DNA from: Lumbricus rubellus | Taxonomy: Eukaryota > Annelida > Clitellata > Crassiclitellata > Lumbricidae | Direction of reading: 5' to 3' | NCBI GenBank assembly: GCA_945859605.1 | Contig: OX243814.1 | Span: 31,326,673 to 31,390,672, forward strand | DNA: 64,000 nucleotides | In this document: positions 3,401 through 63,085 of the stretch, in pieces | Layout of the letters: each line of letters opens with the position of its first letter | Numbering within the stretch: the first letter of the stretch is position 1 | The notes under the pieces: generated by a model | What the model saw: only the letters and a program-made list of their open reading frames with translations | What the model was told of the DNA's origin: nothing | Database searches by the model: none | Position numbers and translations under genes: made by a program

Positions 3401-6400
3401 ACGTTTATGCCATCTGAGGTTAGTTTCGGTTATTTTTCATTTTACGGCTAATCATTTGTCTCATTTGGTAACAAATTTTAAAGTGCTGATTGCTTGTATC
3501 ATGACTGTACAAGTTTATTGTATTCTTACCGGTGTTTCATCCTTGTTGTTTCGTTAGTGGGTTCGAAGATGGGCAGCAAGTGACGCTACGTGATTTGTAA
3601 TTCAGTTGCCTATTCCAAAGTAATTTGTGATTGAATACATTTTAAAAATTTATTTTACCTTCTCGGATTGAGTTAAAGGTTATGAAGTTTTATCGTTACT
3701 GAGGCCACTTCCTTAAATTGCATGACCAGTGTGACATTTGCTTTAATACTTGACAGTTGTAACTTACAGGTATGCTGTTTGTAGGTTTTTCAAGCGTTTG
3801 GAGATGACTCCAGTTTATGTGGATCCTGTTTCAGTGAGTCTGTTTTGTCTGCTTATTCTTCAATTCATGAACAGATATTGAATTTTGTTTTGCTGTATTA
3901 TTGCATCGATTGTAAAAAAAATATTGCATTTTCTTTACTCTGCTTGTTGTATTAATTTTTTAGATATTTCATAAAATTTTGGTAGTTTCTAAATATTCAT
4001 ACAGTAAACCATTACAGAACAAATTTTGCAGCTCCTTTTTGATTTCTAGAAGTGATCATAGCTCTGTCTTTGTGCTTTGTCTCTGTTTGTCTCTATCTGT
4101 TGCATTTCTGCCTTATACCAACTGATCAGTATGCGATTTGCATGCGAAACATCATCTGTGAATTCGTGAAGTTCTTGATGGCAAACACTCAGGCATGTCT
4201 TTTCATCTTTTCTGTTTATATTCTTTCAGAATGAGATAACGGGAGATCATTCATGCATCATGCTTAAAGTGTTACACAGAAAAGAAGACAATGAAGATGA
4301 CATTGACAAAGACGACGTCAAAAATGAAGATAGCTGGTTGACTGATTTATGGATCGGTAAGATCTACTGCCTGGCTGTCAGCTGTGTACAATATTTTCTA
4401 AATCAGTAATTAACTGCAAGTGTATTATATAATTTTTATTTACATCACACTTTGTTTCACACATGGCCTCCCACTAAATTTGCGACTTATGCCTAGACTA
4501 AATTCACCTGCTTTTTATAAGTTGTTCAACCCTATTATTTTAGCTGTGGCTGGACTGGGAGCGCCTCTGAGTAGATTTCTTGAAGAGGCCCTATATAAAT
4601 TCACGAAATGAATGAATGAATGTTTAATCATCTGTCTACAGTATAAATAGATTTCATTTTAAAATCATCATGCTTTTGAGAAGTAGCTGTAAAGTTTATT
4701 AAGTGGAATGAAAATGTCGTTTTGTTTAGATTTTCGAAGGCGACTGATAGAGCTTGTACCGCTACATTTCCGCCACTGGTCGGCCGCACTGGCCTACGAA
4801 CTTCTAGATCAGCCTCATGTCAAATTAAATTCAACGGAAGGTTGTTTTTTGTGATAAATTGCTCTGTTTTGTTATCAAGTATACACACTGCAGGACTGTT
4901 TTTAAGCAATTTTTAGAACTGCACAATTACTTCTTTCCCTTCCCATCCTCCATGGTAAATTACTTCCAATCGGAGGACAATGAATTTTTTTGCTAGTTTT
5001 AACTGTACAGAAGTGCTTCTACAACTGCACAAATCCATTTAGAACTGCACATTTTGTGTACAACTGCACGTTAAAAAAAGCCATGATACACCGTCACACA
5101 CTTGCATGCTCATTGCTTCTGCTGTGGTCTTTTCGTATGTTCACTTTGGTTTATTTATGCACTGTTCAATGTGTTCATCCAGGTTCAGATATGTTTGTGA
5201 CCCTGTTGTTTGATGTCATTTTATGAGGTTGTTTTGCGGTTCTGTAATTTGTGTCATTTTTTTGTGTTAGGTATTACGTAACTTGGAATACAATTTCATG
5301 TGTGTGCACTTTGCAGTATTGATTTTTATTTAATCCAACTTTGTGGCCTATACATCACACATTTATACCCAGTTACAAGTTAGTTAGAAGGTTGAGATAG
5401 GTAAGTCTTATGACTTTGTTTGCTTTGCACAGCGTGGTTTAATAATCATAATAATAATAATAATAATACAATTTATTAAGCGCCGAAGGAAAGGGCGCTG
5501 TACACTGGATCGCATGTTACTGTCAATTGTATGATTGTTTAAACAAATAAGTCAAATAAGTTTAATTTGCAATGACTGTTTTCAGTGATGACTAAGGACC
5601 AAATCAGTTGGGAATTCAGTCCATACGACCTCAGACGGTTGGAGAAATATTCATCTCTGCAAGCCGATTATTTGCTCGTTAAAGACCTCGTCGCTCGACT
5701 CAGTCGCATCTACTTTGTCGGTCGGCTAAATGCAACGTTGAAGATCACTCAATCGGTCAGTGGAATCAATCATTCAATTAATCAATTAATCATTCAGTCA
5801 TTCAATTAATCATTCAGTCAATCAATTAATCAGTCAATTAATCAATCAATTAATCAGTCAGTCAATCAATTAATTAATCAGTCAGTCAATTAATCATTCA
5901 ATTAATCAATCAATTAATCTTTAAGTCAATTAATCAATTGATCATTCAGTCAATCAATTAAGCATTCAGTCAATCAATTAATCAATCAATTAATCAGTCA
6001 GTCAATCAATTAATCAATCTGAGTCGTACTGGTCTTCTTATGAAATGCTGACTTGTGTTTGCGGAGTCAAATGGTTGTGGCAGATAGTAAGAATACTACA
6101 TTTACAAATCACTGCAAGTCAAGCATTTGTTATGCACACCTTTTCATCGCTTGCAAATGTTGAATAAAGCACCACAAAGGAATGTGAAAAGTGCCTAATC
6201 TGTACGCATCCATCTGAATATTTACAGTTGTTGTATTATGGAATTAAAAGGTACAACAATGTCTTTGATTAAATTATCATTTGTTACTATGATTATTTTT
6301 TTACTCGAGCTGTTATGGGTAACTGGAAAGTCAAACTTCATCCTCCGCAACATCAGTGCATTCATTTAGAAATGCTGTGACGGCTGAAGCTTTTTAAAAT

Positions 6401-16500: not shown

Positions 16501-19500
16501 CATATATATGCAGGCTGCAATTGGAACCATTTGCACTCACTGACTTCAGCTGGTGCCTAATGCTCTTGTCAGTCTGACAATCATTGCTGCAGATACACAG
16601 CCTACTCTAAGTGATGCAAGTCTAAGTGATGCAAGTCTAAGTGATGCAAGTCTAAGTGATGCAAGTCCGCAGTGTTTTTGTCAAAAGAAGAAACGAGAGA
16701 AGCCACTAAATGCTTGTGGCACTCATGGCGTCTGCACCAGAATGTAAGCCTTAACTGTAAACACAGCTGTTTATTCAGAACCCCAGAAGAGCTATTTCAG
16801 GGCAACCAGCTGAACGATTTGTGCCCCGTTTAGTTTAAGATCCATTACATGCCAAGCAGAGTTTTTTGTATGCATATCCAAAAGTGGCCCGCCAGGCCTA
16901 AAAATATGGCCATCATCTCTGAAAGAATTAGCAAAAATGTATGAAAAGCATTGACAATTTGGACAGGATAGAACACATAATTATTTTCTATTACAAATTA
17001 TTTTATTTCGACGTCCATAAACAACATCAAACATTCTTTTTTGATTCAATTATGACAATTTTATATGCTTTTAGTTAATTAAACTTTAGCCTTGTGGCCC
17101 CCTAATGTTCTTCAGCCAAGAAAAAGTGGCCCTCATGTTCTCAAACTTGGAAAAAGTGTCCCTCAAGTCAAAAAAGGTTGGGAACCACTGATGTAGGCCT
17201 ATTCATGTATAAAGATACTTAATATATATATAGCACCCTTTAAACTGTGCAGCACAAAGCACAGCACACATGACTGGCTATCTGTCAGATCTAAGCTACC
17301 GTATTGACTTCTATGAAGCACAATTATTGATGGCTGCAGTGGATGTAAAGCCGCTGCAGCTGTTGCCATCTTTGCTTTCATTTTCATAAAGCTCTGTTGT
17401 GTTTTACCACATAAAGCTCTGTTGTGTTTAACCCTTTACCGACCAAAGTGTAGTAAATGTATTGGAAATTCTACACCCTCGGTCAGTAAAAGGTTAAGGG
17501 GAAGCCATCAATCCATAGTGGTGAGCATTATAACACATGAAGACAATTAACACTCGCTGACCAGTATCTAATGCATTTAAGTATATATCTAATGTATTTA
17601 AGTATATATCTAATGTATTTAAGTATATATCTAATGCATTTAAGTATGCCTGGGCTTCTTTCTATTACGCATCTTTGGGAAACCTCTCAGAAGCGCAGTA
17701 GATACATTTATTTCACCACGAAGGTAGAAAGTAAAAGAAACACAATTATGTACATACAGATCTGTGCAAAACTGGCAGGGCTTAAAGTGTGCCTGGACGG
17801 TCGTGGACGGCATTCAGGCACTTATTTTAAAATCTGAACACCGTCCTGCCACTTATTTGGTCCAAACAGCAGAGAACGGTAAGGAGCGTCCAGGTGCTTC
17901 TTTTTCTACATTTTAAGCACTTAAAACCGGCATATATAAAAACGTTCACTCCTGCAATGTAATGTGGGTAGATATATATTAACACCATAATCATATTACA
18001 ACGAGGTACAAGTTCAACATTATAGCTGTATCCTCTGCCACATACTTGGAGGACACTGGTGCTTGCTATGCAATGCAAGATATCAACCAATCAAAACAAG
18101 ACTTATTCAAGATCCTCATACAGAGTAATTAATTATTTGAGAGCCAAGACTCTCTGAAGTGCATGTTAACACTGCAAAGCGTTTCCTGATGTGGGGGAGT
18201 GGGTTTCTGAACATGGTTGCCTAATTTGCCTTGTAGGAGGTTTGAACCTAGTACACGTTACTTGACATGTAGGCCTACTTGCCCAAAAGCTGCTAAGTCG
18301 CTTGTTAACTGACGCGTGGTATATTACAGGGGCGTCTATCCTATGGGGGGGATGGCGCGGAATGCGCCATTGCAAAAATTGGGGGGGAATAAATTTATTG
18401 CAGTTGGGGGGGACATAAGATTTTTGTCCATATAAAAAGAAATTAGCACTGCACTTGTTGTAGTATATTTATTTGATAATGAACAAAATAGTATCCTATT
18501 CCCCCCCCCCAACTGGAGCAAAACCTGTGCAAAGCGTCTATAAGCTTACCGGCCATAAGACGCCAAATAGCCTACTCCGCTCACTCCCCTGCGCTTGCGT
18601 GCTTACGCACAACAGATCATATTACTTACTTACTGACCAAAATGAAACAAGCAGTGCCTGTGCCAGATTACGTCATTACCAGTCAACTCTACTTTAATTA
18701 CTATCTATCATCTATGGTTAAAATTTATTGTTTTCGTCCGATTATTGGATTATAATATTGAATTTAAAATGCCTCGCGAAAAACAACAGTATAAATATCA
18801 ATGCAAAGAACCCAGCTGTAATTTAATGGTTCGTAGCGACAAATGGAACGACCATTGCAAGAATAAACATGGATACAAATTTCTAAGGTAAATCAATTAC
18901 TAACATTAATTATTAGTATAGTCTGTAACATCACACGCGGACTAATAATATCCATAACTCGTAATCTCGTATTCATGAACGCTGCATTTGTAGACACAGA
19001 GTACAGACTAGCCACTATAATCCTTCAGCTCTCTCTATTGACTGTGACTGTGAGGGTTATCAGAAAAAATTATTGAAATGAAGATGAGTAGTTTTGTAGG
19101 CCTATCATCTGCCGAGTCATGTAACCCGTGTTGCCTCTGTGTGGCCGAATGGATCACGTCGCACCGACTCGCACGTCTTTCGTGCCGGTCGGCGCGAAAG
19201 GGCCTGGGTTCAACTCCATAATTCCATCATCCATGAAACCGTCTTGTGGAGTGGAGCAACTTTTAACCATAAAAGTACAGCTGTTAAACGATTTGACATT
19301 GACATATAAGTGGTAGTTAGCCTAATCATAATGATCTTGGCGTCTATCTTACTTACTATGATTACGAGTTGAAAAAGAAACTGGCACTGGTCCTATGTGA
19401 TCCCCTGCATCTACACGGTTGTATATATTCGCCAGCTCAACCCGCGTTTTCCACTCCTATTCTATTGATCCGCCACCGTTTCTTCATTCCTTGAATCCTT

Positions 19501-22500
19501 GTTACGTCTTATCTTATTTTCAGAGATTTGGAAATCAAGTACATCGTTGTACAAATACGCAGAAATGGAGCCTGGGAGAAATTTACAACTGGAAACCCAA
19601 GGTCGCCAGCACCAGATAACAGTCATGAAGACGTTCCTGGTTCTAGTAGTTTAACAAGGGATGTTGAAGATAATGCTAGGCAGTGGCAACTGTCCAACTC
19701 GCTACAACCAACTACCGCGGACTTGACTGTTGCATCAACTGAAAGGCTAGACGATGTGGACATGCCGATTTCATCTGTTGCGCGTGGTATTCTAGCAGAT
19801 CATATGTCACTCGAATCACCAATGCATCCAGCTGCTGCTGGTCTTGCCAGTGAAGACAGTGATCAACCTACCACCGACCAACCATCTGATGATGAAACAG
19901 ATGCACAGCTTGAAAACAACAGTACAGTCAGTACTGCAAGTCCAGTTCAAGGGAGGGCGTCCAACGAAGCTTCGACTTATTCTGAGTACGATCCAGTTAA
20001 AGTGGCCAGACAGCACATTGATGGATCAGTCATAACTATGTTCGTAAATAATTCTTGTCAACCAGATTCATCTTTCGTCTTTCCCAAATCCGACACCCGG
20101 TCATTTCTTCATTCCTGGTTTTTTCGCGAAATGCCAGACGGATCTAAAGAACGGCGATCTTGGCTATCGTACAGTACATCGACCGACAGGGCATATTGTT
20201 TGGACTGTTTGCTTTTTGGTGGTCCATCTGCTGCAGAAGTATGGACTAAAAGTGGATTCCAGGGCTGGGTACAACGTCATGGAATTCGCGACATTTGTTT
20301 ACATGAATCCTCAACATGCCACCGAGACGCCGAAATGGCCCATCTGCGCTGGGTTGGAAAAAAAAGAATTGACCAGCATCTTGCCAACCAGCGGAATACT
20401 CAGATTGAGCAAAACAGACAAGTTGTTTATGTTGAAATCAAAGCCATCAAATATCTTGCCAAGGAAATGATGGCACTCCGTGGCCATTTTTCATTTTATG
20501 GAAAGTTTTTGAACTTGTTTAAATTGCTTGCCGAATTTGACCAGAGTTCTGCCCTGTATCTTGCAAAGTTGGATGCAATGCGAGAAAACGACACTAAGAG
20601 GAAACCAGAGGTAAATTTCCTGAGCCCCGGAAATGTTCGTCGTCTTCTTGGCATCATTAAGTCAATGATTGTGGAAAACATTGTCAGTGACATCCGTCGA
20701 CAAGGCAGGTGCTCGCTTATTAGCGATGGGACACAAGATAAGTCGAAACTTGAAGCACAATGTGTTATTATGCGGTACATCGAAGGATGTGGTGACGACT
20801 TGCACCCCGTGGAGCGTCTCGTTGATGTCTTCACATCTGGAGAGACTAGTGGAAAAGTACTTGCTGATACGATTATGAAAAGTTTAGACGTCGCTGGTAT
20901 TGATCTCAATTGGCTAGTTGGTCAAAGTTTTGATGGGGCTTCGAATATGCGGGGTAACATTTCCGGATTGAAAACACAAATTCAACAGCATGCCAAGAAA
21001 GCTATCTACATCTGGTGTCATGCGCATAGACTAAATCTTGTCGTTGAATCTGTGCTCGCATGCAGTGTTGAAAACAGTAAGACGATTGGTCTGATGCAGG
21101 AGTTGCACACATTCTTCAACGGCCACAAACGTCATGCTGTTCTGGTTAAAATGCAGACTAATCAACGGTACTGCATGACACTTAAGCGTGTCTCCGAGAC
21201 AACTCGCTCATGGCGAAGCGTCGAGGATGGCATTAACACTCTTATTGAGTGTTATGAAGTGGTTACTGATGCACTCGAGGCACTGAAGACATCTAGAACA
21301 TCAGACGCAGTCACTGTTAGTGGGGCATCCGGCCTACTCAAGCGGCTTGATGAATTCGACGTCATTGTTTGTATGTTCGTTTTGCGTTCAATCCTGCGCG
21401 TGACAGGACCGGTCTCCAGGATGCTACAGGGCGTAGGCACAGATCTCGCAATAGCGTCCACACTGATCGAAGCCTGCATCAACCAGTTTCGTAAATGCAG
21501 AGGTTCTGTTGATGACGCATGGGAGAAGGTACTGTCAGATGCTAGAGCATTTGCTGCAAAGCATGGTATAGAGCCAAAGTTGCATCAGAAGAGGCAACGC
21601 AAGACAAAGAAGATGCCAGGTGAACAGTGTTCGGATGAGCGCGTCGTTGACGATGATCAGGCACTGAAGGTTAATGTTTACATTCGATCCCTTGATACCG
21701 TCCTTGTCGCCTTAGAAGATCGGTTTTCAGACGAAAATCTCCTTTTTCTAAAGCAGATACAACTATTCACGCCGAAGAGCTTATCAAAAGGAACTCGAGT
21801 CGCAGAGGATGACATTGCTGAATTGTGCGAGTTCTATGGACTTTCGGCTGTCCAACTTGCCAGAGAGCGAAACGATTTCCTCGATGTGTATTCCGATTTG
21901 GAGCAGGTTGTCACAATTGACCACCAAACTCAAACTGCAAAGCATGACCAGTCTGAGACGATTGCTGTCGCTGATGATGACGACGAATGTGAATGTGACT
22001 CAGAAGAACCAGGATCTGATGCCAAATGGATGGAACAAAGTTTCATCAAACCACTACGTATTGTGCAACAAATTTCGTCGTATCCTCATCTGTCGTCTTT
22101 GTACAAAGTGTTATCTACGTTGGCAGTATCGAGTTGCAGTGCGGAACGGGTGATGAGCCGTATCCGTATCGTCAAGAACAGACTTCGATCAACAATGGTT
22201 GACGACTACTTTTCGGCATTGTTGGTTCTCTCAACTGAGAAAGACATTCTCGACAAAATCGTCATCAACGACATCATCAATCGATTTGCAGCACTGTCTA
22301 GACCACTCAGCAAACACCTCATTTATTCATGAACTTTTAGACTTTTGGTCGACCGTCCACTCTATCGAACTGATGTCCGGACGGTATATTGAATTAAAAT
22401 TGGATAGGTCTGGATTGTTGCATTTGTAAAAACATCTTTTTTCACTCCAAGTGTTACCTACGCGCACTTCGCGCAGCAAAAAATTTAAAAATCTAGGCGG

Positions 22501-25500
22501 GAGGGGGTGTCCCCCTTCCGCACCCACCCCCTTGGGGGGGAAGGCGCCATGAACTCACTTTTAAGTTGGGGGGGATAGACGCCCCTGGTATATTATGATT
22601 AAAAATGTTACAATTATCTATAAATGTTTTGCCTTGCAGGCTGCTTAGTATGTAGTTAGCAGTCTTATCATGTCAGTATTGAGCAGCACCTATTGCACCT
22701 GCATTTGCATTTGCACGATGATTTGATAGATTGATGTAGTAATGATAATTATAAATGAAAGATATTGCAATGCTTTGATGTCGTCGCCCCAAAACGGATG
22801 TTTCGCATGATGAATGGAAGTGGCGATGGCAAAAAGAAGTTGTGAGATTTATTGATGATTCTGACATTCTGGAAATCAATCACGCTTTACGAATCTTTGA
22901 AGTCGTCGTACGTGACCGTGTAATGGCTGTCACCATAATTCAGTGATTTTTAAAGTGACAATCTTTGCAGGACAATCACCGCAATAGTTACTGCAGTTCA
23001 GGTTCAATTTTAATTACTATTCCTGATTAGTGTGCAGCAATAAAGTTAATGTTAATGTTAATTATCCAGTCGTTAGATGAAATTGTGTAAAAAAAGCCTT
23101 ATGTTGCAAATGTCTGCCTTTTCATGATTAAAATCAAATTTAATGTGAAATTTAGACATCTAAGATAGTTTAATCTATGATCTAATGTGAATTCTTGATT
23201 TAATCAAATTTATATACATGTAATTATTTCATCTACGAATCTAAGGTTATCAAAGATTTTTGATCTAATTTTAATATCTTTTAAAATTGATGTGTACATT
23301 AGCCTGAAAGGAAATACAGAAATTGCATTTTCATACTTAACTTAATTGCATGTGATGCCTGTTTTGTTTTCATGGTGAAAGTGAAGTTAGGTACTTAATT
23401 AAGTGAAGTTGGGCACTTGACTGTGGCTGATTTCTATCGATGACTGCCTCTCTCTGTCTTTTACAGCTAGATTCATTGTGCTCATTGCTGGTGGTTTCGT
23501 TGTTCCAGTGCCACTGGTGAGAACTGATGGCCTGGATAGATCTAATGTGAGCCCAACAAACATCAGCAGACCATTGTCTGCTAACACTCATTGTCTTGGA
23601 TCTGTCCAGGGGCGCAACCAGAAAATTTTCCTGGGGGGTGCTCAGAATTTTTATTGTAAGCGCCGAAGGTGCGAAGCAGCGAGTGCGGAGGGTTCGAGGC
23701 CAATGCCGACTAAGGGGTCTGCGGAGCGTCGTAAGCTTCCCCCAGCGGGGTCTGAGGAGGAACCCCAGAAACCAACGTATTTTTTACTTTTGACAACAGC
23801 TAGAGCGCGTTTCAGGCTCTTGTTTGACAGCTGTATTTATGAGCAAGCTAGTCATGAAAACTTCTGAAAAATATGGTTGATGACTTCAAAAATGTCCTTC
23901 CGGATTTGTTTAGATATGACAAAAGTCTTGGCGGAATTAATAACAAGTGTTTAATCTAGCCCCTCTCCCAATAACCAGTGTTTTATCAAGTCCATTCTGT
24001 GGGAATCAATTTTTCTGGTGAAAATCGAGCATCCGACTGAAAATCTCCACAGCACGTGGCGCCGAGAGGGCATGGGCTTTGGGAGGGGATGTGCCCCTTC
24101 GCATCAGAAATTGTCTAATTCCACTCTGCAATGGCAGCGTTTTAAGCTGTACCATTTTAAGATGTCAACTTAGCAAAATAACTTTATTAATTCAGTGCTG
24201 ATAAACAAGAGTTGTTTAGGATTTCAACTTAGGCCTAGCAGGGAAAGGGGTTTGGGCAGAGGGATAGGCTTTCTCCCCAGCACATAATTTTTATTTCCAC
24301 ACTTCAGTGGTATCATTTTAGGCTGTCTTTTGAACGAAATTTATCATATCATTGCTGAAAGACATGGTGTAAGACTTCAATGCCACTCTCCATTGTTTAA
24401 TTTTTTAATTTCCATACTGTAATGGTAGGCCTTTAAGCTGTCATCTGAATAAAATTGTTCATTTTCAATGCTGATAGTCACAGATTTTAGTTTAAAATTT
24501 CAGAGCGTTGCTTCGCAATTACTTAAAAGTTTGGGATTTGCACAATGCACAGTGCACCGTGACTCTTAAAGCTGTCGTTTTTACAAAATAGCTCATGATT
24601 TTAGTGCTCAGAGACGTTAGGCCTATAAGCTTATAAGATTTAAATAAATGTCTCTTCCATCGTCTAAGAATTTTCTATTTACACATGCGGTAATGACAGC
24701 ATTTTAGCCTGTGCCACCCTGTGGTCTTAACTCTGAGTATATATCTTGAAGAGGCGCTATATAAATTCTCAGAATGAATGAATGAATGAATGAATGAATG
24801 AATATTGTTCATTATGGATAAACAGTGGATTATACTGCAGAAATTTATAATAATATTCATGAGGTATTTATGACATATTGGAGGATATAAGCATCTCCGT
24901 TCCTTACCACAAACTTTGGGGGTTTAAAACTTCAGAAGTTCAGACTGTTGCCTCACAGTTACTTACTTCTCCCATATCGCCTTAAATTATATCCGCCATG
25001 ACAGTAAGTTATGCACATTATAATAGGTTATAGTAGGAAGCAAGATCATGATAGACCTATAGGCCTAATATGGCAGTTTATGTAATTCAATATAATAAAC
25101 AGCAACTAAAAACTACTATCATTTTGTCAAATTTGTGGGAAAATTTTCATTTGTGGACGCTTTCGCCGCAAGAAATGTCTCGATCAAACATAGCTGAATA
25201 TTTTATTTGAAGAAAAAGCAGTAACTTTTAGGCCTAAACAAAATAGCACACACGGCACTATCAATTAAGTCGTAACATAGGCCCTATTATCAATAAATTG
25301 GTGAGACACTGTAATGTAAAGGTACAGGCATATCGCTAATGCTTTTAATTGATCACTAGACAAACTCTCGAGACTCAGACAAACTCAGGTAGACCAGCTA
25401 AACACTGAAATCTAGTGCTTTATGAACCATGAATTTGACTAAGATTATAATAGGCTACAGAAGAATGAAGGAACTTGCTTGATTGTGTAATCTGAAAGAC

Positions 25501-35400: not shown

Positions 35401-38400
35401 ACATCAGGTGGTGGTGATATAAACCATAGGAATGCTGCTTAAACTCAGGGCTTTTTTACGTGCAGTTGTACACAAAATGTGCAGTTCTAAATGGATTTGT
35501 GCAGTTGTAGAAGCACTTGTCTGCAGTTAAAACTAGCAAAAAAGTCATTGTCCTCCGATTGGAAGTAATTTACCATGGATGATGAGAAAGGAAGGAAGGG
35601 GTTGTGCAGTTCTAAAAATTCCTTAAAACAGCCCTGGATAATTAATTGTCCACAAATCAAGCCGGTACTTCTGTGCTTCAACAAAGACATTCCATCCATT
35701 ACTTCAGGAGAGAGACAACTTTTTTTTATCCAGCACTAATTGGCAACAGGTATAAATGGAATTGCTTATCTGATGAAACTTGTGAACAGTTGCTCTTACC
35801 AATGTTAACGAAAAACCAGTGCTTAAAGTGTAAACAAAGAAGTGTCTGGACGCTCTTTAACTTTGCAGTATGTGCTGGCGAAATGAGTGGGAGGACGGCG
35901 TTCAGATTTGAAAATAAGTGCATGGACGCCGTCCATGACCGTCCAGCCGCACTTTAAGCCCTGCTAAAAACTACCAATTGAATGGTAATACAGGACAATT
36001 GCAAGCTTTCTAGGTAATTATCTGAAAATGATAATGGTTAAATAGTTTTTAAATGGTCAAGTGTTATTTTTTTTCTCTGGTTCGTAGCCAATTGCTCTTC
36101 CATGTTTTTAATACTATTTAAATAGTTTCTTACAGGACTGGTAGTGTACTATTTGACATTTTATTTAAACTATTCACCCTGGCTATTCATTTATCCCAGC
36201 ACTGCTCCCAGGTTTTGTCAATTCTTGATTTCAGTATACCTACCATTGTTTTATTTACAGCAACAAGCACCAACTTAAAGGCAAAAATTGGAGTAAATTT
36301 TTGGCATAGGCCTACATAAAAGCTGTGATCTCTGATCAGACCTTTGAATGGCACTGTTGATGTGAATCTATTAGCAGTATATCATCGGGGTGTTGCCTTT
36401 GGTGGCACTTTCGGCCGAGGTTTTGGTGTCGCTTCATTGCATAACACTGGCTCAGTGGCAAAATTTTCAAGCATGTTGTGGACCCTGGTGCCTGAGCAAA
36501 ACGCAGGTTGGGTCTGGGAGAGCATGTGAATCCCCAGAAAATGTGTGTTCTTAAATGATTCATTTGTAAGCATACAAATAGTCAAGTTGGGCTTTCAAAA
36601 TCTTAATTTTGATCATCATTATCAGTTTTGGCCATCACTTGAATCTCATTATGCCTTAAAAATTACAAATTTCAACTTTTGTTCTCAAATTATGTAGTCT
36701 TTAGGCAACGTTCCGTGGATCAGAAAAACATTGTTTACAGGCCAGAAATGGTCTACGAGTTGACCCTTTGACATCCTAGATATATAGCACCTTTAAGAAC
36801 TTGAGAAATGCACTGTCAACGCACAGTTTTGTAGTGTGTGCCTTTGCTTGTATGTGACTTTGTATGCATACTTTAGTGTATGTTTTATACATGCATACTT
36901 TAGTGTATGTGTTTGCATTTGTGTGCCTTGTCTGCGTGTGAGGTTGCAGTTTACGTGTATTTGTCTACATCTGGACGTGTGTCTGCGTGTGTATCTGTGT
37001 GTGTCTGTGACACCATGTGTGTGTGTGTGTGTCTGTGAGTGTCTTTGTGTGTATGCCAGTTTCTGTATGTCAGTGTGTGTGTGTGTCTATGTGTGTCTTT
37101 GTGTGTATGTCAGTGTACGTATGTGTGTGTGCGTGTGTGTGTGTGTGTCTGTGAATGAATGAGTGTGTGTCTGTGTGTGTGTGTGTGTGTCTATGTGTGT
37201 GTCTTTGTGTGGTTTCAGTGTACGTATGTGTGTGTGTGCGTGGGTGTGTGTGTCTGTGAATGAATGAGTGTGTGTCTGTGTGTGTGTGTGTGTGTCTATG
37301 TGTGTGTCTTTGTGTGTATGTCAATGTGCGTATGTGTGTCCTTGTGTGCGCGCGCACAGCAGATGAGCCACGTTGAATCTTCTTAGTTTTCGATGATAGA
37401 AGCTCTTCTTAGGCTCCTCTTTCTGCACTTAGACGAGAGCGACAATCAATCACCTTCTCCTATTCAACGACCATCCATCCTGCCAATGCGTTTGGTCAAC
37501 AGTGGACCATCACTGGCCAGTGCCACTCCTCCTCTCCAGAAACGCGACCTCTACATCCTCCGCGCATCACTTTCATCGTGTCCTTCAGATCTTCTTCCAT
37601 CACAGGAGGCAGACAGACCTGCTGCTCTTGACTGCAATTACTGACGCTGCTGCTCTTCGTCACCTCTGTCTGCCGGTTTCTTGATTTTATTTGTTCGCAT
37701 CGAGATCTAAAGTGGGGAAGAAGACATTGAGGGAATTACATATGTTGACCTTGCTGTAGAAACCATCAGTATTATGCCAAAGATGCTCGTCACTGGAAGT
37801 TTTTCTTCAATTGCTTTTTTTAAAATCAATCTTTCTGTAAAAAAATTTCAAGGACTTCCCAACTTTCTGCCAAATGTACCTTGCTTAGGTGCAAATAAAA
37901 CTGATAGATAACTACAATATCTCTTTTCTTTGTATAGAAATATATATACTTTTTAGTTTTACTATCATACGGTTTTTTAGCTTTATATTTATTTATTTGG
38001 TTTACAACCATATATCAGAACAAGATAAAACCAAATCACCGAAGTCATTGAAAATGATAAAAGCTGATTTTAATTCACAGAGGGAAACTACAAGTAAAGG
38101 GTTGATCCAACTAACTAATACAATGCAGCTATACAACAACAGGAGAAACAACTCTTAACTAATGACTTAGACTAGCACATTCTACATATAGCATATACTA
38201 CATGTATTATACTAGTATACAGAATTATAGGTTTATTAATATGTATTTCTAAATATAATATATATATTTGTAAATTACAGATATCAAATTATATAATAAA
38301 TATACATAATTATGTATACATATTATATGCTGGTATACATTTATTACAACAGTTATTTTTATATATAATTGCACCCTTCTAAGTACCATACATTACAAAT

Positions 38401-62739: not shown

Positions 62740-63085
62740 GACCTTTTATATAGCACACCTTCAAGGTACCTACTCAGAAGCGCTCCCAGTTCAACAATAC
62801 AATACAATGATTGTTTTGCTTTGTTTGGGTTTAGTGTCGTCCGTTCCTATGCAGAACGTCGTTCGACCGCAGCGTGGCCGTTCGATGTCAATGCAGGAGT
62901 ACGACATTCCTCTGCGCCAGCGCATGAACAGTGCCCAGCTCTCCTACAGCCCCCCTGTGTCCTGCAGTCCCCCCAGCGCCGACGGGCACCACTCTGGATC
63001 AGGCGGGGGTTCAAGCCCCGGGTCCAGCTCCCCGACAATTCCAGACAAGGGATTTGCTCAGCAGCCACTGATGCAGTCCAACTGA
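11185..63085 (+). CDS. NDRG-family protein (N-myc downstream-regulated gene homologue), complete, 13 coding exons
   Basis: NDRG proteins are cytosolic alpha/beta-hydrolase-fold proteins linked to stress response, trafficking and differentiation, with no known enzyme activity. Exons: 11185-11211, 12678-12767, 31274-31331, 38459-38576, 50040-50102, 51044-51104, 52489-52575, 53321-53398, 57785-57900, 58768-58803, 60675-60822, 61465-61516, 62835-63085. They join in frame to 394 residues, the usual NDRG length. Hallmarks are [15 protein letters not shown] (about 45-59), [24 protein letters not shown] (from 98), [14 protein letters not shown] (126-139) and CPILLVTGQ. Gly129 occupies the nucleophile-elbow position where hydrolases have Ser. 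The C-tail is Ser/Pro/Gly-rich and contains RGRSMS (325-330), an AGC-kinase-type site. The start exon (MADRLRSLQ) is the least certain; Met10 is an alternative. Introns 2-4 are 7-18 kb and loaded with transposons. The NDRG paralogue type cannot be assigned. Confidence 0.92.
11586..11648 (+). repeat. (GAT)n microsatellite
   Basis: Interrupted GAT/GAC run. Confidence 0.85.
12127..12405. mobile_element. Probable hAT-like MITE, ends GGGCTGAAAGTG
   Basis: The left end (near 12127) reads AGGGCTGAAAGTG and the right end CACTTTCAGCCCTG. These are inverted repeats 279 bp apart. Flanking 8-mers match poorly, so the target duplication is not supported. No coding sequence. Confidence 0.55.
13517..13546 (+). 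repeat. (CTG)n triplet repeat
   Basis: About ten CTG triplets in NDRG intron 2. Other CAG/CTG runs are at 27930, 32125 and 56822. Confidence 0.9.
13657..13872 (+). repeat. 23-bp CACCC minisatellite
   Basis: About eight copies of a 23-bp unit made of CACCCACCCACC and CACCCTGG. The open minus-strand frames through it ([13 protein letters not shown]) are repeat artefacts. Confidence 0.93.
13991..14070 (+). repeat. (TA)n microsatellite
   Basis: Two TA runs separated by a short spacer, immediately left of the mariner insertion. Confidence 0.9.
14097..15091 (+). mobile_element. Decayed mariner-type element with both ends
   Basis: Both ends carry the long inverted repeat beginning CACGGTGATTCATAAAAAAA, flanked by TA on each side (14095-14096, 15092-15093). 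In the interior, plus-strand frames give [12 protein letters not shown], then after a one-base shift [15 protein letters not shown] (from 14727), [12 protein letters not shown] and [11 protein letters not shown]. These match the C-terminal catalytic half of mariner transposases ([10 protein letters not shown]...W-PxNSPDLNPVDY...DQRII). Stops, frameshifts and loss of the second catalytic Asp make it a dead copy. It lies in NDRG intron 2. Confidence 0.88.
15457..15803. mobile_element. hAT-like MITE, ends CATGGGCGTCC
   Basis: The inverted ends CATGGGCGTCC(A/G)C extend into G/C-rich arms ('gggggcgc'). Identical 8-bp target duplications gttgtggg flank it (15449-15456, 15804-15811). The 347-bp interior holds five 21-bp repeats (15630-15722) and no transposase. 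Confidence 0.88.
15630..15722 (+). repeat. 21-bp minisatellite inside the MITE
   Basis: Five copies of 'ggtaatatggaaattcaaac' plus one base. The 21-bp length keeps frames open, which explains the VIWKFKL repeat frame. Confidence 0.92.
16078..16140 (+). repeat. Dispersed repeat, pair of 46398-46465
   Basis: The blocks 'gttgccctcctccttt' and 'ttgggactggcac' occur in the same order at both places. Class unknown. Confidence 0.5.
16606..16666 (+). repeat. 15-bp minisatellite
   Basis: Four copies of tctaagtgatgcaag. Confidence 0.93.
17090..17190. mobile_element. hAT-like right end, left end not found
   Basis: The stretch ends AAGGTTGGGAACCACTG at 17190, a well-known hAT-type terminus (CAGTGGTTCCCAACC on the other strand). 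I could not find a matching left end or target duplication, so it is a truncated or diverged copy. Confidence 0.5.
17428..17497. mobile_element. TTAA-bounded hairpin MITE, copy 1
   Basis: It begins TTAACCCTTTACCGACC and ends with the complement (GGTCAGTAAAAGGTTAA). The 70-bp unit shares a core (gtagtaaatg, ggaaattcta, accct) with 43460-43530. TTAA boundaries and CCCTTT ends are typical of piggyBac-like elements. Confidence 0.65.
17565..17646 (+). repeat. 21-bp minisatellite
   Basis: Four copies of 'aagtatatatctaatgcatt' type units. Confidence 0.9.
17776..17922 (+). mobile_element. hAT-like MITE family A, copy 2
   Basis: It begins CAGGGCTTAAAGTG and is flanked by aaaactgg (17768-17775) and aaaaccgg (17923-17930), 7 of 8 identical. 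Its interior matches 8756-8932. Confidence 0.82.
18327..22587 (+). mobile_element. Complete, apparently autonomous hAT transposon
   Basis: The 4,261-bp element has perfect 15-bp terminal inverted repeats CAGGGGCGTCTATCC. The identical 8-bp target duplication gtatatta flanks it (18319-18326, 22588-22595). It encodes one long two-exon transposase in the same orientation as the NDRG gene, whose intron 2 it occupies. Perfect ends, a perfect target duplication and an uninterrupted frame argue for a recent insertion. Confidence 0.95.
18769..22332 (+). CDS. hAT transposase (ZMYM1-like, DUF4371 type), two exons, 975 residues
   Basis: Predicted exons are 18769-18887 and 19524-22332 (stop TGA), with a GT-AG intron. 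Exon 1 encodes a C2H2-like finger (C12-x4-C17-x11-H29-x4-H34). Exon 2 runs uninterrupted. Numbering from the TTG at 19528 (add 42 for the spliced protein), it has a TTF-type zinc-finger region around [10 protein letters not shown], then SDGTQD (Asp400), [10 protein letters not shown] (Asp469), a CHAHRLNLV motif and a C-terminal dimerisation block with [12 protein letters not shown] (Glu873). These are the three catalytic acids and conserved C-x2-H of hAT transposases. Such proteins bind the terminal repeats and excise and reinsert the element. A domesticated gene is unlikely because the frame lies inside intact ends. Antisense frames here are shadows. Confidence 0.92.
22596..23598. other. NDRG intron 2 segment, nothing recognised
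   Basis: AT-rich DNA between two hAT elements, without a convincing exon or delimited repeat. Confidence 0.5.
23607..25643. mobile_element. Non-autonomous hAT element with internal diverged repeats
   Basis: The ends are CAGGGGCGCAACCAG and, on the other strand, CAGTGGCGCAACTAG, each followed by a 'ggggggtgc' block. The identical 8-bp target duplication gatctgtc flanks it (23599-23606, 25644-25651). The 2,037-bp interior lacks a transposase. Diverged units ('attttaagctgt'-like) recur near 24130, 24320, 24432, 24570 and 24700. A SINE tail is inserted at 24735-24802. Confidence 0.9.
24735..24802 (+). repeat. SINE tail (family 1) inside a hAT element
   Basis: 'ctctgagtatatatcttgaa', then 'gaggcgctatataaatt' and a (GAAT)n tail. 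Confidence 0.7.
25652..26376. other. NDRG intron 2 segment, nothing recognised
   Basis: No exon or bounded element seen between two hAT insertions. Confidence 0.5.
26385..26708. mobile_element. hAT-like MITE, ends CAAGRCC
   Basis: Its ends read CAAGACCATAG and, on the opposite strand, CAAGGCCGCAG. The identical 8-mer ctcgagac flanks it (26377-26384, 26709-26716). G- and C-rich subterminal tracts lie near 26650-26685. 324 bp, non-coding. Confidence 0.82.
27154..27318. mobile_element. hAT-like MITE, ends CATGGGYGGAGTTT
   Basis: 165 bp with inverted ends CATGGGTGGAGTTT and CATGGGCGGAGTTT and G-rich arms. The identical target duplication gttctaga flanks it (27146-27153, 27319-27326). Confidence 0.88.
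27327..28959. other. NDRG intron 2 segment with a SINE and CTG repeat
   Basis: It contains the SINE at 27670-27800 and about nine CTG triplets at 27930-27957. Nothing else is recognised. Confidence 0.5.
27670..27800 (-). repeat. SINE (family 1), partial
   Basis: 'agcaccccttcaagatgtct', 'cagaggcgctcccgac' and 'cagtgcggacactg' are the reverse complement of the family-1 tail and body. The tRNA head is missing. Confidence 0.75.
28960..29157 (+). repeat. 15-bp minisatellite
   Basis: About 13 copies of cttcttttgtcWttg. All frames stay open, producing SFVFA/LLLSL and minus-strand TKEAM/DKRSN repeat frames that are not genes. Confidence 0.93.
29440..29505 (+). repeat. SINE tail (family 1)
   Basis: 'gggagcgcctctgatgc', then 'gaggcgctttgtaaattta' and an A/T-rich tail. 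Confidence 0.65.
29536..29612 (+). repeat. tRNA-like SINE head fragment
   Basis: A-box-like 'tggataaagtgcttgg' and B-box-like 'gggttagatcc' lie 36 bp apart, as in tRNA-derived SINE heads. This is not a functional tRNA: no cloverleaf was found. Confidence 0.4.
30150..30552 (+). repeat. Purine-rich minisatellite
   Basis: About nine copies of a roughly 40-45 bp unit containing 'gaggatgggaggtgaggagg' and 'aagaagaggaa'. Confidence 0.9.
31047..31165 (+). repeat. SINE (family 1), partial
   Basis: 'gtggcgtgaaactctt', 'cagtgtccgc', 'gagcacctctgagtagagag' and 'ggggcgctatag', with an A-rich/GAAT tail. It lies 109 bp before NDRG exon 3. Confidence 0.78.
31358..31560 (+). repeat. 13-bp minisatellite next to the exon 3 donor
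   Basis: About 15 copies of ttcataataattg, starting 26 bp after the NDRG exon 3 donor at 31332. Confidence 0.93.
32125..32186 (+). repeat. (CAG)n triplet repeat
   Basis: About 20 CAG/AGC triplets with one CAA interruption, in NDRG intron 3. Confidence 0.93.
32317..32512 (+). repeat. (GT)n compound microsatellite
   Basis: GT runs interrupted by 'tagctg' and 'taggtg'. Frames through it (CVCVCV, THTHTH) are artefacts. Confidence 0.93.
32753..34290 (+). repeat. Tandemly duplicated dispersed repeat with C-rich tracts (units from 32753 and 33440)
   Basis: Two head-to-tail units start with cccggccacgcgttgctgtg. Each then has a long CCCCT-rich tract (about 32787-33060 and 33472-33890), a conserved stretch with 'cttatgacgtca', 'gggacgtgttta' and 'aaaattttcaaaacaatcgg', and ends 'ttggaaagttcatttttat'. 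Unit 1 is 687 bp and unit 2 about 850 bp. The difference is mainly the C-rich tract. TA microsatellites bound the pair (about 32715-32740 and 34290-34342). A retroelement-derived repeat is possible, but no reverse transcriptase or integrase was seen. Confidence 0.75.
35278..35350 (+). repeat. SINE tail (family 1)
   Basis: 'gggagtgcctctgattag' followed by 'gtgctatataaatttta' and a TACAAT tail. Confidence 0.6.
35446..35636 (-). mobile_element. hAT-like MITE family B, copy 2
   Basis: Its ends are CAGGGCTTTTTTACG and (other strand) CAGGGCTGTTTTAAG. The interior is nearly the reverse complement of 4891-5085. Flanking 8-mers do not match, so the target duplication has decayed or the copy moved by recombination. 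Confidence 0.7.
35817..35963 (-). mobile_element. hAT-like MITE family A, copy 3
   Basis: The ends are CAGTGCTTAAAGTG (left) and CAGGGCTTAAAGTG (right, other strand). The flanks cgaaaaac and ctaaaaac match at 7 of 8 positions. 147 bp, reverse orientation to copies 1 and 2. Confidence 0.82.
35972..36830. other. NDRG intron 3 segment, nothing recognised
   Basis: No exon or bounded repeat seen, except a weak SINE-tail-like 'atatagcacctttaag' at about 36780. Confidence 0.45.
36990..37352 (+). repeat. GT-rich array with about 110-bp higher-order repeat
   Basis: GT runs containing 'ctgtgaatgaatgagtgtg' at about 37150 and again at about 37254, each followed by 'tctatgtgtgtgtctttgtg'. This shows a duplicated higher-order unit. 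Confidence 0.85.
37360..38458. other. NDRG intron 3 end, nothing recognised
   Basis: A roughly 300-bp open frame at 37393-37644 has no recognisable domain or splice context. The rest is AT-rich up to the exon 4 acceptor at 38458. Confidence 0.45.
38836..38885 (+). repeat. SINE tail (family 1)
   Basis: 'gagcgccttcgtgagattct' and 'ggggcgctatataaatgttc' run directly into the TACA array, which may have grown from the SINE's tail. Confidence 0.6.
38880..39100 (+). repeat. (TACA)n-(CA)n-(TACA)n microsatellite
   Basis: A 220-bp compound array; all frames through it are artefacts. Confidence 0.95.
39101..40570. other. NDRG intron 4 segment, nothing firm
   Basis: A GC-richer block (39960-40270) has open frames on both strands, but no recognisable domain and no splice context. 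Confidence 0.4.
40582..40740 (+). repeat. (GAT)n/(GGT)n array
   Basis: Alternating GAT and GGT runs at the tail side of the SINE at 40741-40915 (minus strand), probably expanded from its ATC-type tail. Confidence 0.9.
40741..40915 (-). repeat. tRNA-derived SINE, family 2
   Basis: Minus-strand order: A-box-like 'gtggtgtagcagcatg', B-box-like 'aggttcgaatctct', then 'cactcatctcatcccca', 'gaggacctgcctttgag' and an (ATC)n tail. 53096-53280 matches the same body and tail on the plus strand. Confidence 0.72.
41023..41150 (+). repeat. (GGA)n/(GAA)n array
   Basis: Purine-only triplet array. Confidence 0.92.
41884..42160 (+). repeat. 15-bp minisatellite
   Basis: About 19 copies of taatgttatgtattt. 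Confidence 0.94.
42275..42605 (+). repeat. (GACA)n-rich array
   Basis: Irregular GACA/CACA/GAGA tract. Confidence 0.9.
42606..43180. other. NDRG intron 4 segment, nothing recognised
   Basis: No bounded element or exon seen. Confidence 0.4.
43183..43335 (+). mobile_element. hAT-like MITE family A, copy 4 (degenerate)
   Basis: It has 'ggcataaagtgtgatagg', 'acggtcatggacgccgtcc' and 'gccgtcctgccacttattt' in the same order as copies 1 to 3. The ends are eroded and no target duplication is visible. Confidence 0.65.
43460..43530. mobile_element. TTAA-bounded hairpin MITE, copy 2
   Basis: TTAACCCTTTAAAGCCG...CGGCATTAAAGGGTTAA. The core is shared with 17428-17497. Confidence 0.65.
44180..44305 (-). 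mobile_element. hAT-like MITE family B, copy 3 (degenerate)
   Basis: 'aaatggatgtgtgcagttgt', 'aaaagctcttctgtgcag' and 'cattgtcatccg' match the order in 35460-35560, with decay and no recognisable ends. Confidence 0.5.
44452..44629 (+). repeat. SINE (family 1), cut by assembly gap
   Basis: It starts CAGGGGCGGATACAG and has 'gaggttcgaatccacc' (B box), 'accttgggcaagtccttc' and 'gggagcgcctctgagtag', then runs into Ns. It is almost identical to 44830-45006. Confidence 0.85.
44630..44829. other. Assembly gap of 200 N
   Basis: Exactly 200 unknown bases between two near-identical repeats. The true length is unknown. Open frames that cross it are meaningless. Confidence 0.99.
44830..45040 (+). repeat. 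Full-length-like tRNA-derived SINE (family 1)
   Basis: The best copy for the family: 'gcggatacggaaattttcat', B-box-like 'gaggttcgaatccacc', 'accttgggcaagtccttc', 'cagtgtccgctctgcattcg', the tail 'gagcgcctctgagtagagag' and 'ggggcgctataac', then an A-rich end. The B box suggests RNA polymerase III transcription. The shared tail probably recruits a partner LINE, which is not in this window. Confidence 0.83.
45578..45672 (-). repeat. SINE tail (family 1)
   Basis: A (CATT)n tract, then 'ggctactcagaggtgctccc', the reverse complement of the family tail. Confidence 0.65.
45917..46105 (+). repeat. (TCT)n-(TCC)n-(TCT)n polypyrimidine tract
   Basis: About 190 bp of pyrimidine-only triplets with near-mirror symmetry. 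The Ser/Leu/Pro/Glu homopolymer frames here are not genes. Confidence 0.95.
46294..46400 (+). repeat. (GGT)n/(GAT) array
   Basis: GGT triplets with 'gatagt' interruptions every 18 bp in the middle. Confidence 0.9.
46398..46465 (+). repeat. Dispersed repeat, pair of 16078-16140
   Basis: Shares 'gttgccctcctccttt' and 'ttgggactggcac'. Confidence 0.5.
46838..46955 (+). repeat. Dispersed repeat, copy 2 (pair of 840-965)
   Basis: Contains 'ttgattggctctg', 'acaccaaattgcagatag' and 'aattaaagaatattcttg', as in copy 1. Confidence 0.6.
47697..47775 (+). repeat. (CTGT)n microsatellite
   Basis: Tetranucleotide run with few interruptions. Confidence 0.93.
47776..48551. other. NDRG intron 4 segment, nothing recognised
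   Basis: TA-rich stretches (47830-47910) and unremarkable sequence. Confidence 0.4.
48552..48712 (+). repeat. (CA)n compound microsatellite
   Basis: CA runs with 'tacacgcaca' interruptions. Confidence 0.93.
48713..49826. other. NDRG intron 4 segment, nothing recognised
   Basis: No exon or bounded element seen. Confidence 0.4.
49830..50003 (+). repeat. AATAT higher-order array
   Basis: 'aatataat' and 'aataatat' modules, with 'atagtat' recurring roughly every 60 bp. It ends 36 bp before NDRG exon 5. Confidence 0.9.
50103..51043. other. NDRG intron 5
   Basis: A SINE tail fragment (minus strand) at about 50262-50318 ('atgtagcacctattaaag' and 'tactcagag') and three 'aattgaacaattgatt' repeats at 50819-50866. 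Confidence 0.5.
51385..51450 (+). repeat. (TTA)n microsatellite
   Basis: About 21 TTA triplets. The flanking 'ctacaattcttaaatctgac' block occurs on both sides (about 51272 and 51454). Confidence 0.93.
51950..52400 (+). repeat. Pyrimidine-rich TCC minisatellite
   Basis: A 66-69 bp unit containing 'cctactctcctctccctct' type text recurs near 52130, 52200 and 52270. The long Ser/Pro/Leu frames are artefacts. Confidence 0.88.
53096..53280 (+). repeat. tRNA-derived SINE, family 2
   Basis: B-box-like 'accggttcaaacctacc', 'gaccttggacaagttgctca', 'cactcatctcacccca', 'gacctgcctttggtcagag' and a (ATC)n tail. It ends 40 bp before NDRG exon 8. Confidence 0.72.
53532..54117. mobile_element. Foldback-type DNA element with repeat-built arms
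   Basis: Nine 16-18 bp 'ggacattatccccccc' units lie in the left arm (53539-53690). Six lie inverted in the right arm (54008-54110). The centre is a telomere-like 'gggtcggttagggtcag' repeat (53709-53880). The tips GGTAAACGGACATTATCC and GGTTGTAGGACATTATCC face outward. The identical 9-mer acatgtggg flanks it (53523-53531, 54118-54126). Nine-base duplications suggest a Mutator-like or Merlin-like origin, but no transposase is present. Confidence 0.8.
54507..54586. mobile_element. TTAA-bounded hairpin MITE, copy 3
   Basis: TTAACCCTTTACCCGTT and the inverted AACGGGTAAAGAGTTAA. Same boundary logic as the other two, with a different core. Confidence 0.6.
54790..55135 (+). repeat. About 45-bp minisatellite
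   Basis: About eight copies of a unit with 'gattacagttattacgcagt' and 'agcaatgacagggatt'. Confidence 0.93.
55136..56507. other. NDRG intron 8 segment
   Basis: Tyr/Cys-rich text around 55560-55800 repeats 'ggtactgctatgaatgct' and 'gtcatgtgtga'. A SINE tail is at 55826-55903. No exon seen. Confidence 0.45.
55826..55903 (+). repeat. SINE tail (family 1)
   Basis: 'tcgggagcgcctctgagtag', 'ggagcgctatataaatgtcc' and a (GAAT)n tail. Confidence 0.72.
56508..56690 (+). repeat. AATC/GATT/GACC tetranucleotide array
   Basis: (AATC)n followed by (GATT)n and (GACC)n; the first two can pair as a hairpin. Confidence 0.88.
56822..56876 (+). repeat. (CTG)n triplet repeat
   Basis: About 17 CTG triplets with two interruptions. 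Confidence 0.93.
56877..57784. other. NDRG intron 8 end
   Basis: Diverged blocks with 'ggttgccat' and 'tattgttctcctg' recur near 57480-57500, 57535-57595 and 57665-57735, suggesting an old tandem duplication of about 110 bp. No exon. Confidence 0.45.
58995..59293. mobile_element. hAT-like MITE, ends CATAGGCGTAGG
   Basis: 299 bp with inverted ends CATAGGCGTAGG(A/G)GAC. The identical 8-bp target duplication catatttg flanks it (58987-58994, 59294-59301). It lies in NDRG intron 10. Confidence 0.9.
59302..60145. other. NDRG intron 10 segment, nothing recognised
   Basis: No exon or bounded repeat seen. Confidence 0.45.
60146..60218 (+). repeat. (GT)n microsatellite
   Basis: About 36 GT repeats. 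Confidence 0.95.
60318..60674 (+). repeat. About 39-bp minisatellite ending in the exon 11 splice acceptor
   Basis: About nine units of 'gttctggtgttaag' + 'gtgtccggtgttaatg' + 'tttttat'. The last unit's 'gttctggtgttaag' is the predicted acceptor of NDRG exon 11, which begins ATGTCCAATATTG at 60675. Confidence 0.88.
61400..61437 (+). repeat. (TA)n microsatellite
   Basis: About 19 TA repeats, 27 bp before NDRG exon 12. Confidence 0.95.
61517..62670. other. NDRG intron 12 segment, nothing recognised
   Basis: No exon or bounded element before the SINE tails at 62672. Confidence 0.45.
62672..62706 (+). repeat. SINE tail fragment (family 1)
   Basis: 'gtagaggcgctttataaatg' followed by an ATT microsatellite (62711-62740). 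Confidence 0.55.
62746..62800 (-). repeat. SINE tail fragment (family 1)
   Basis: 'tatatagcacaccttcaagg' and 'ctcagaagcgctccc', in inverted orientation to the preceding fragment. Confidence 0.6.

Follow-up and report, generated by a model that had tools for sequence, protein, structure and literature searches.

Does this locus of Lumbricus rubellus carry a hAT transposon that is whole and that moved recently, or a remnant that only resembles one? The question concerns a window of 64,000 nucleotides (nt), the whole stretch of DNA analyzed here (contig OX243814.1, forward strand, assembly GCA_945859605.1), for which a preliminary description had proposed an autonomous-type hAT element at 18327..22587, recent and possibly still mobile. 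The element was considered, with a probability of approximately 95%, to be a structurally complete and probably autonomous DUF4371 (Tip-like) hAT transposon that arrived or re-expanded very recently and spread by the mechanism proposed below. The preliminary description had cited perfect 15-bp ends, a perfect 8-bp duplication, an uninterrupted transposase frame, two catalytic Asp and one Glu, and a 119-nt first exon adding a C2H2-like finger, and each of these was located again, beginning with the element borders.

18327..22587, plus strand: complete hAT element, 4,261 bp, with ends, duplication and 39 further copies fetched
18319..18326, unstranded: left target-site duplication GTATATTA, read from the sequence
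22588..22595, unstranded: right target-site duplication GTATATTA, identical to the left octamer (8/8 bp)
18327..18341, plus strand: left terminal inverted repeat CAGGGGCGTCTATCC, 15 bp
22573..22587, minus strand: right terminal inverted repeat, exact reverse complement of CAGGGGCGTCTATCC (15/15)
18344..18413, plus strand: left subterminal G7 motifs of the TTGGGGGGGA and TGGGGGGGATGGCGC types
22533..22575, plus strand: right subterminal G7 motifs, which share the strand of the left-end motifs

Each exact 15-bp end was present once in the window, and GTATATTA had one extra chance occurrence, at 56532. The length of the G run in the left subterminal motifs differed between copies. Terminal inverted repeats of 10–25 bp and a length of 2.5–5 kb are given for hAT elements (PMC3942097), and the repeats of 15 bp and the length of 4,261 bp fall within these ranges. 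Moreover, the 8-bp target-site duplication of the hAT superfamily was found in 33 of 37 copies and was consistent with the empty site of one of the other copies, L032, described below. The coding part of the element was read as follows.

18769..18887, plus strand: exon 1, 119 nt, starting with ATG at 18769 and encoding a C2H2-type finger (C-x4-C ... H-x4-H); the joined frame is open and the peptide matches the P0003 N-terminus
18888..19523, plus strand: GT-AG intron, 636 nt, with GT and AG retained in 11/11 full-length copies
19524..22332, plus strand: exon 2 including the stop, encoding the remainder of the 975-amino-acid (aa) transposase in the joined frame
20197..20322, plus strand: second zinc-binding motif, C224/C227/H259/H265 of exon 2, in nearly invariant alignment columns
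20725..20727, plus strand: first catalytic Asp, D441 of the joined protein (D400 of exon 2), invariant in 23 proteins
20932..20934, plus strand: second catalytic Asp, D510 of the joined protein (D469 of exon 2), invariant in 23 proteins
22144..22146, plus strand: catalytic Glu in SCSAER, E914 of the joined protein (E873 of exon 2)

When 18769-18887 and 19524-22332 were joined, the only stop of the 975-aa frame was the terminal one. A search of 5.8 billion proteins with exon 2 as the query, in which 7,998 candidates were scored, yielded 23 relatives. Two of these were Gordionus gene models, and the best relative, P0001, was 53% identical across the entire query. In the alignment, a counterpart of exon 1 stood ahead of the exon-2 part in P0002, P0003, P0016, and P0018, and P0001 and P0005-P0008 started at or slightly before the exon-2 start. 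The exon-1 peptide and the N-terminus of P0003 aligned without gaps, with 25/38 residues identical and 35/38 similar. Homologues thus have this N-terminus and the same junction to the exon-2 part, which supports the predicted exon 1 and its splice junction at the level of sequence comparison.

DUF4371 proteins have been described as containing a TTF finger, an RNase H-like domain, often extra N-terminal fingers, and a hAT dimerisation region (PMC3985635), and the order of parts in the window transposase is the same as this published order. At an E value of 0.01, DUF4371 matched 23/23 members of the alignment and Dimer_Tnp_hAT (PF05699) matched 15/23. By its position, the C224/C227/H259/H265 motif is a putative TTF-type finger, read from these conserved residues alone. 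A single-sequence search of solved structures gave no match, and the family profile found Hermes at E 3.9e-4, aligning with the Hermes C-terminus; E914 sits within the C-terminal motif that can be aligned with Hermes. The predicted structure had a mean predicted local distance difference test (pLDDT) score of 76.3, and its match to Hermes was far above the subsequent rows. An RNase H-like DDE core with a hAT fold was found in the predicted model, and a C-terminal dimerisation region was found by the Pfam and profile matches. As modeled, the element belongs to the DUF4371 (Tip-like) hATs, and its predicted fold is Hermes-like.

As the age and activity of the element can be read from its copies, these were collected from the same genome (787 Mb, 368 contigs). 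The DNA search, in which 40 of 41 candidates were scored, gave at least 68 matches with 95–100% identity. A genome-wide search for copies with the same ends had been proposed as a check. From the genome, 39 further copies were fetched, which formed, with the window copy, the set used here (n = 40). Eleven were full-length, 26 were internally deleted or rearranged with both ends, and three (L019, L020, and L046) had no readable left end. Identical 8-bp duplications were present in 33 of the 37 two-ended copies, including the window copy, and all 33 were distinct; therefore, these copies represent separate insertions. The joined frame was open in four full-length copies (the window copy, L009, L015, and L017), and exon 2 was also free of stops in L020 (C14), where the left end is a gap. 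In addition, the repeat that L032 interrupts was found uninterrupted, with a single CATCCTCC, at two places of the window.

4891..5019, plus strand: paralogous empty site of the repeat entered by L032, single CATCCTCC
35510..35640, minus strand: second paralogous empty site of the L032 repeat

Substitution divergence between the full-length copies was 0.02–0.71%, and their differences formed a near-perfect star. L010 and L013 lie 323 bp apart in the same orientation with different duplications. They share six substitutions, one of which creates a stop, and two insertions, one of 3 nt and a second of 2 nt that breaks the frame; one substitution and some small insertions set them apart. Since the broken frame is shared by both and the duplications are different, a frame-broken copy presumably moved with transposase from elsewhere. 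L041 (C5:38833649-38835252) and L042 (C5:38813535-38815138) are oppositely oriented copies of one 1.6-kb deletion derivative, separated by 20 kb. Their 1,604 bp are identical and their duplications different, which marks a local move made very recently. Moreover, a 1.4-kb derivative was present at four places (L033, L034, L036, and L037) with zero substitutions and only 1–3 gap columns. From the near-identical copies, the private duplications, and the identical derivatives at different sites, it follows that movement of the family was very recent and took place in trans as well. The family is a very recent burst in which copies with broken or missing frames have spread, and the burst perhaps followed a horizontal arrival. 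The preliminary proposal of a recent, autonomous-type and possibly still mobile element was thus supported by the near-identical copies, the private duplications, the four open frames among 11, and the L032 empty site. Present-day mobility, transposase activity, and splicing in this species are inferred.

The mechanism proposed for this burst is as follows. A spliced mRNA would be translated into the transposase of 975 aa. This protein would carry a C2H2-type finger at its N-terminus, followed by a finger of the TTF type, the RNase H-like DDE core, and, C-terminally, the dimerisation region. The transposase would bind the element ends, excise the element, and join it to new sites by an 8-bp staggered cut, with C/G preferred at both outer positions (SWWNNWWS). 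Intact copies would supply transposase in trans to the internally deleted and frame-broken copies.

Some results weigh against this interpretation. In the window protein, both domain matches were slightly below the Pfam cut-offs, with DUF4371 at E 1.1e-6 and 29.1 bits (cut-off 32.1) and Dimer_Tnp_hAT at E 2.9e-4 and 21.0 bits (cut-off 21.4). Four of the 37 two-ended copies had no identical duplication: L018 runs into N, L039 is situated in a C-run, and the octamers of L021 and L035 differ. The frame was broken in 7 of the 11 full-length copies. Moreover, the coding differences among copies comprised 21 silent, 32 replacement, and 6 stop changes, with those common to L010 and L013 counted twice, and the silent share was 36% compared with 27% expected; the differences are therefore near neutral, and nothing in them shows that single copies were kept functional.

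These points lead to the question of whether the window copy merely looks intact and is in fact a relic, dead or domesticated, the recent moving having been done by other copies. Three of its four coding changes relative to the copy majority are replacements, any of which could inactivate it, and its intron contains a private 10-bp insertion, absent from the other copies, which could have the same effect. However, no defect is seen in its frame, splice sites, ends, or catalytic residues, and it differs from the other full-length copies by 0.31–0.52%, being as close to them as they are among themselves, and a relic is considered unlikely. It is far less probable that the family has long been present and that the apparent youth of the copies is due to gene conversion or to duplication in the assembly. 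One copy does lie on a short contig (C197, 16.9 kb), and two copy pairs are close neighbors (C15 and C5), as would suit such duplication. Against this, all 33 readable identical duplications are distinct, and the private mutations form a star, whereas conversion would mix them. The next scored relatives in the protein search of the genome were only 26–28% identical, except for one 80-residue piece at 43% (49 of 1,089 candidates scored). A complete element belonging to a very recent burst remained the preferred reading.

The 33 distinct duplications also allowed the target preference of the element to be described. C/G was found at position 1 in 27 and at position 8 in 23 of them, and A/T at positions 2, 3, 6, and 7 in 25, 22, 22, and 22, with a background of approximately 60%. 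The outer C/G thus provided most of the signal, and the consensus was SWWNNWWS. Of 2000 sets of flanking octamers taken at random, not one matched the information content of the duplications. The Ac group targets NTNNNNAN, and the Buster group targets NNNTANNN. The present set had T at position 2 in 9/33, A at position 7 in 10/33, and both in 4/33, as compared with NTNNNNAN, and TA at positions 4–5 in 4/33, as compared with NNNTANNN. The former is given as the hAT target in PMC3878927. The preference for SWWNNWWS is neither that of Ac nor that of Buster. According to the BuT2 paper, the target preference of the Tip group was not investigated (PMC3942097); the 33 sites now give one for this hAT kind.

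As the copies are young and near-identical, they are a direct readout of very recent small mutations. The 40 copies contained 203 copy-substitutions, 178 of them distinct. Small insertions relative to the copy majority were many and mostly lay in G or C runs. Outside these runs, seven insertions at six places turned TA into TA-GGC(C)-TA, approximately 4 per 100 substitutions. TA-GGCC-TA was found in L019, L040, L029, and, as one inherited event, L033-L039; TA-GGC-TA was found in L025 and L040, and TA-GCC-TA in L017. Because L025 and L040 were hit at the same TA, perhaps in a single event that had two outcomes, 6–7 independent events were counted. For every one of the six places, the plain TA with exact flanks was found in 13 to 38 other copies; the flanks compared were 12 bp per side, except for 10 bp to the left of the L017 place, next to a deletion. 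Other short insertions had different sequences, for example, CAC, TAAG, AATT, TGCCA, and TA.

The same words were in excess outside the element. In 104,590 letters, comprising the window and the flanks of the hAT copies and hence not a random sample (a small L003/L006 overlap was retained), TAGGCCTA occurred 53 times against 0.85 expected from trinucleotides, approximately 60-fold. It was the largest excess among the octamers that were seen at least 10 times and passed a complexity filter. TAGGCTA occurred 33 times against 3.9 expected, TAGCCTA 27 against 3.8, and TAGCTA 14 against 17.5; no clear wider context beyond TA was seen around TAGGCCTA in this sample. A second sample, 102,599 letters taken from 30 other places, had 40 TAGGCCTA and 26 each of TAGGCTA and TAGCCTA, compared with 3, 1, and 0 for TACCGGTA, TAGCGCTA, and TACGCGTA. 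In the case of the window alone, 17 TAGGCCTA were found against 0.32 expected (for example, at 7322, 18270, 24230, and 58441), and neither TAGGCTA (3 against 4.2) nor TAGCCTA (7 against 4.0) was clearly in excess. The density of TAGGCCTA was one per 2–4 kb in three samples, which extrapolates to hundreds of thousands per genome. Two occurrences stand close to or within the element.

18270..18277, unstranded: TAGGCCTA close to the element but outside it; the window has 17 occurrences in total
19097..19104, unstranded: TAGGCCTA in the element intron, present in 16 copies with identical flanks of 12 bp and as plain TA in 0 copies

Since no copy has a plain TA at the latter place, the intron TAGGCCTA predates the burst.

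We hypothesize that the TAGGCCTA insertions are excision scars of a TA-target transposon, with a Tc1/mariner-type element as the candidate parent. Every TA-GGC(C)-TA insertion added a second TA, as the duplication of a TA target would. Tc1/mariner elements duplicate TA, and their excision leaves 2–3 nt 3' overhangs, the repair of which makes a footprint (PMC3878927). If a GGC overhang were left at both sides, pairing over GC might give GGCC, and pairing in register with a mismatch might give GGC or GCC; alternatively, a GG overhang might be filled in and trimmed. On balance, we lean toward the view that the hAT copies record a very active TA-target transposon with 5'-GG(C) ends, which repeatedly inserted and left, with TAGGCCTA, TAGGCTA, and TAGCCTA as its scars. 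A host error of DNA repair or replication, giving both the insertions and the TAGGCCTA excess, is a real though rather doubtful competitor. In its favor, the parts of the genome that were read, namely the window, the loci examined, and the ends of some Tc1/mariner-like copies, contained no parent whose ends are GG or GGC. No filled site, with the element still in TA, was seen in the hAT copies. Against a host error, a second TA is part of every insertion, in keeping with the duplication of a TA target, the 4-nt and 3-nt forms (GGCC, GGC, and GCC) are those expected from repair of 2–3 nt 3' overhangs (PMC3878927), and all three also occur in excess beyond the element borders, as counted above. 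If the excision reading is true, a word excess that could be mistaken for a regulatory motif is excision debris, and a frequent, specific type of insertion would explain the extreme excess of one palindromic octamer.

Candidate parents were sought among Tc1/mariner-like elements by two genome searches (2,758 first-look candidates with 150 scored and 30 loci; then 82 candidates with 71 matches). The ends that were readable, those of L067, L074, L075, L078, and L079, start after TA with CAGGGTGG, CACTGTG, or CACCGTG, not GG, and these loci were rejected. L078 (C4:16297302-16299202) and L079 (C1:26954350-26956250) have intact frames of 366 and 364 aa with ends CACTGTG and CACCGTG, and each family has several equal-scoring copies. 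A GG-ended inverted repeat in L004 is, as read from its flanks, an internal portion of a longer inverted repeat. ISL2EU, whose ends usually start with GG, was ruled out, as its reported target is AT within AATT (PMC4482050) compared with TA in mixed context here. Among the titles listed by searches of an open-licence library on TAGGCCTA, footprints, ISL2EU, Tc1/mariner, and TAGGC, none dealt with TAGGCCTA as a scar.

Several further features were observed in the copies and the window. L043 contains an insertion of approximately 440 bp (approximately 530-973 of the copy), with 8 bp of element sequence repeated at both sides, which looks like a nested hAT-type element. The internal deletions of L022-L033 and L041 often have a few bases in common between the two sides of the junction, with overlaps ranging from 0 to 6, a pattern like that of abortive gap repair. 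Insertions of 8–18 nt partly repeating adjacent bases were seen in L016 (reference 326), L025 (2216), and L017 (889), and these are possibly footprints of other hAT elements. Two more CAGGGGCG starts, at 23607 and 44452 of the window, may be ends of other Tip-like elements. For the host gene, whose orientation the element had been suggested to share, ten chosen open reading frames of the window gave no Pfam match above cut-off. An open frame at 62835-63085 follows an acceptor-like TTTAG and ends in TGA, with no family match above cut-off; it is a plausible candidate for the plus-strand last exon of a host gene. The tRNA and Rfam scans of the window gave nothing at the usual thresholds. A reading of the intron by eye as tRNA-like or like a short interspersed nuclear element was dropped, as a permissive Rfam scan gave only ceN30 (E 0.14) and IS128 (E 1.2).

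Finally, the element was compared with known hAT systems. Hermes is a member of another hAT branch, and its transposase was only 15% identical across the aligned part. Two Gordionus models named by their source as zinc finger MYM-type protein 1-like (P0016 and P0018) have the same order of parts, including the N-terminal finger; however, they are 33–34% identical in the alignment, and P0018 is shorter and stops before the C-terminal part. In viral contigs, four stretches fitted the pattern of a relative and none was confirmed. Tip100 of Ipomoea purpurea, a member of the Tip group likened here by description and not by sequence, has an 11-bp repeat CAGGGGCGGAG that has the first eight end bases CAGGGGCG in common with the window element, and it is 3.8 kb long with one long 808-aa transposase frame and 8-bp duplications (PMC12511174). 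Unlike Tip100, the window element encodes 975 aa in two exons with an extra N-terminal finger. BuT2 of Drosophila, also of the Tip group, likewise has DUF4371, the hAT dimerisation region (hATC), an 8-bp duplication, and short internally deleted derivatives thought to be mobilised by BuT2, but it is 2,775 bp long with five exons and 643 aa (PMC3942097). The element is thus a further member of an already known hAT kind, with the target preference and the proposed scar process as the newer results, and an intact, recently expanding animal Tip-like hAT with several open copies is a candidate gene-transfer tool.

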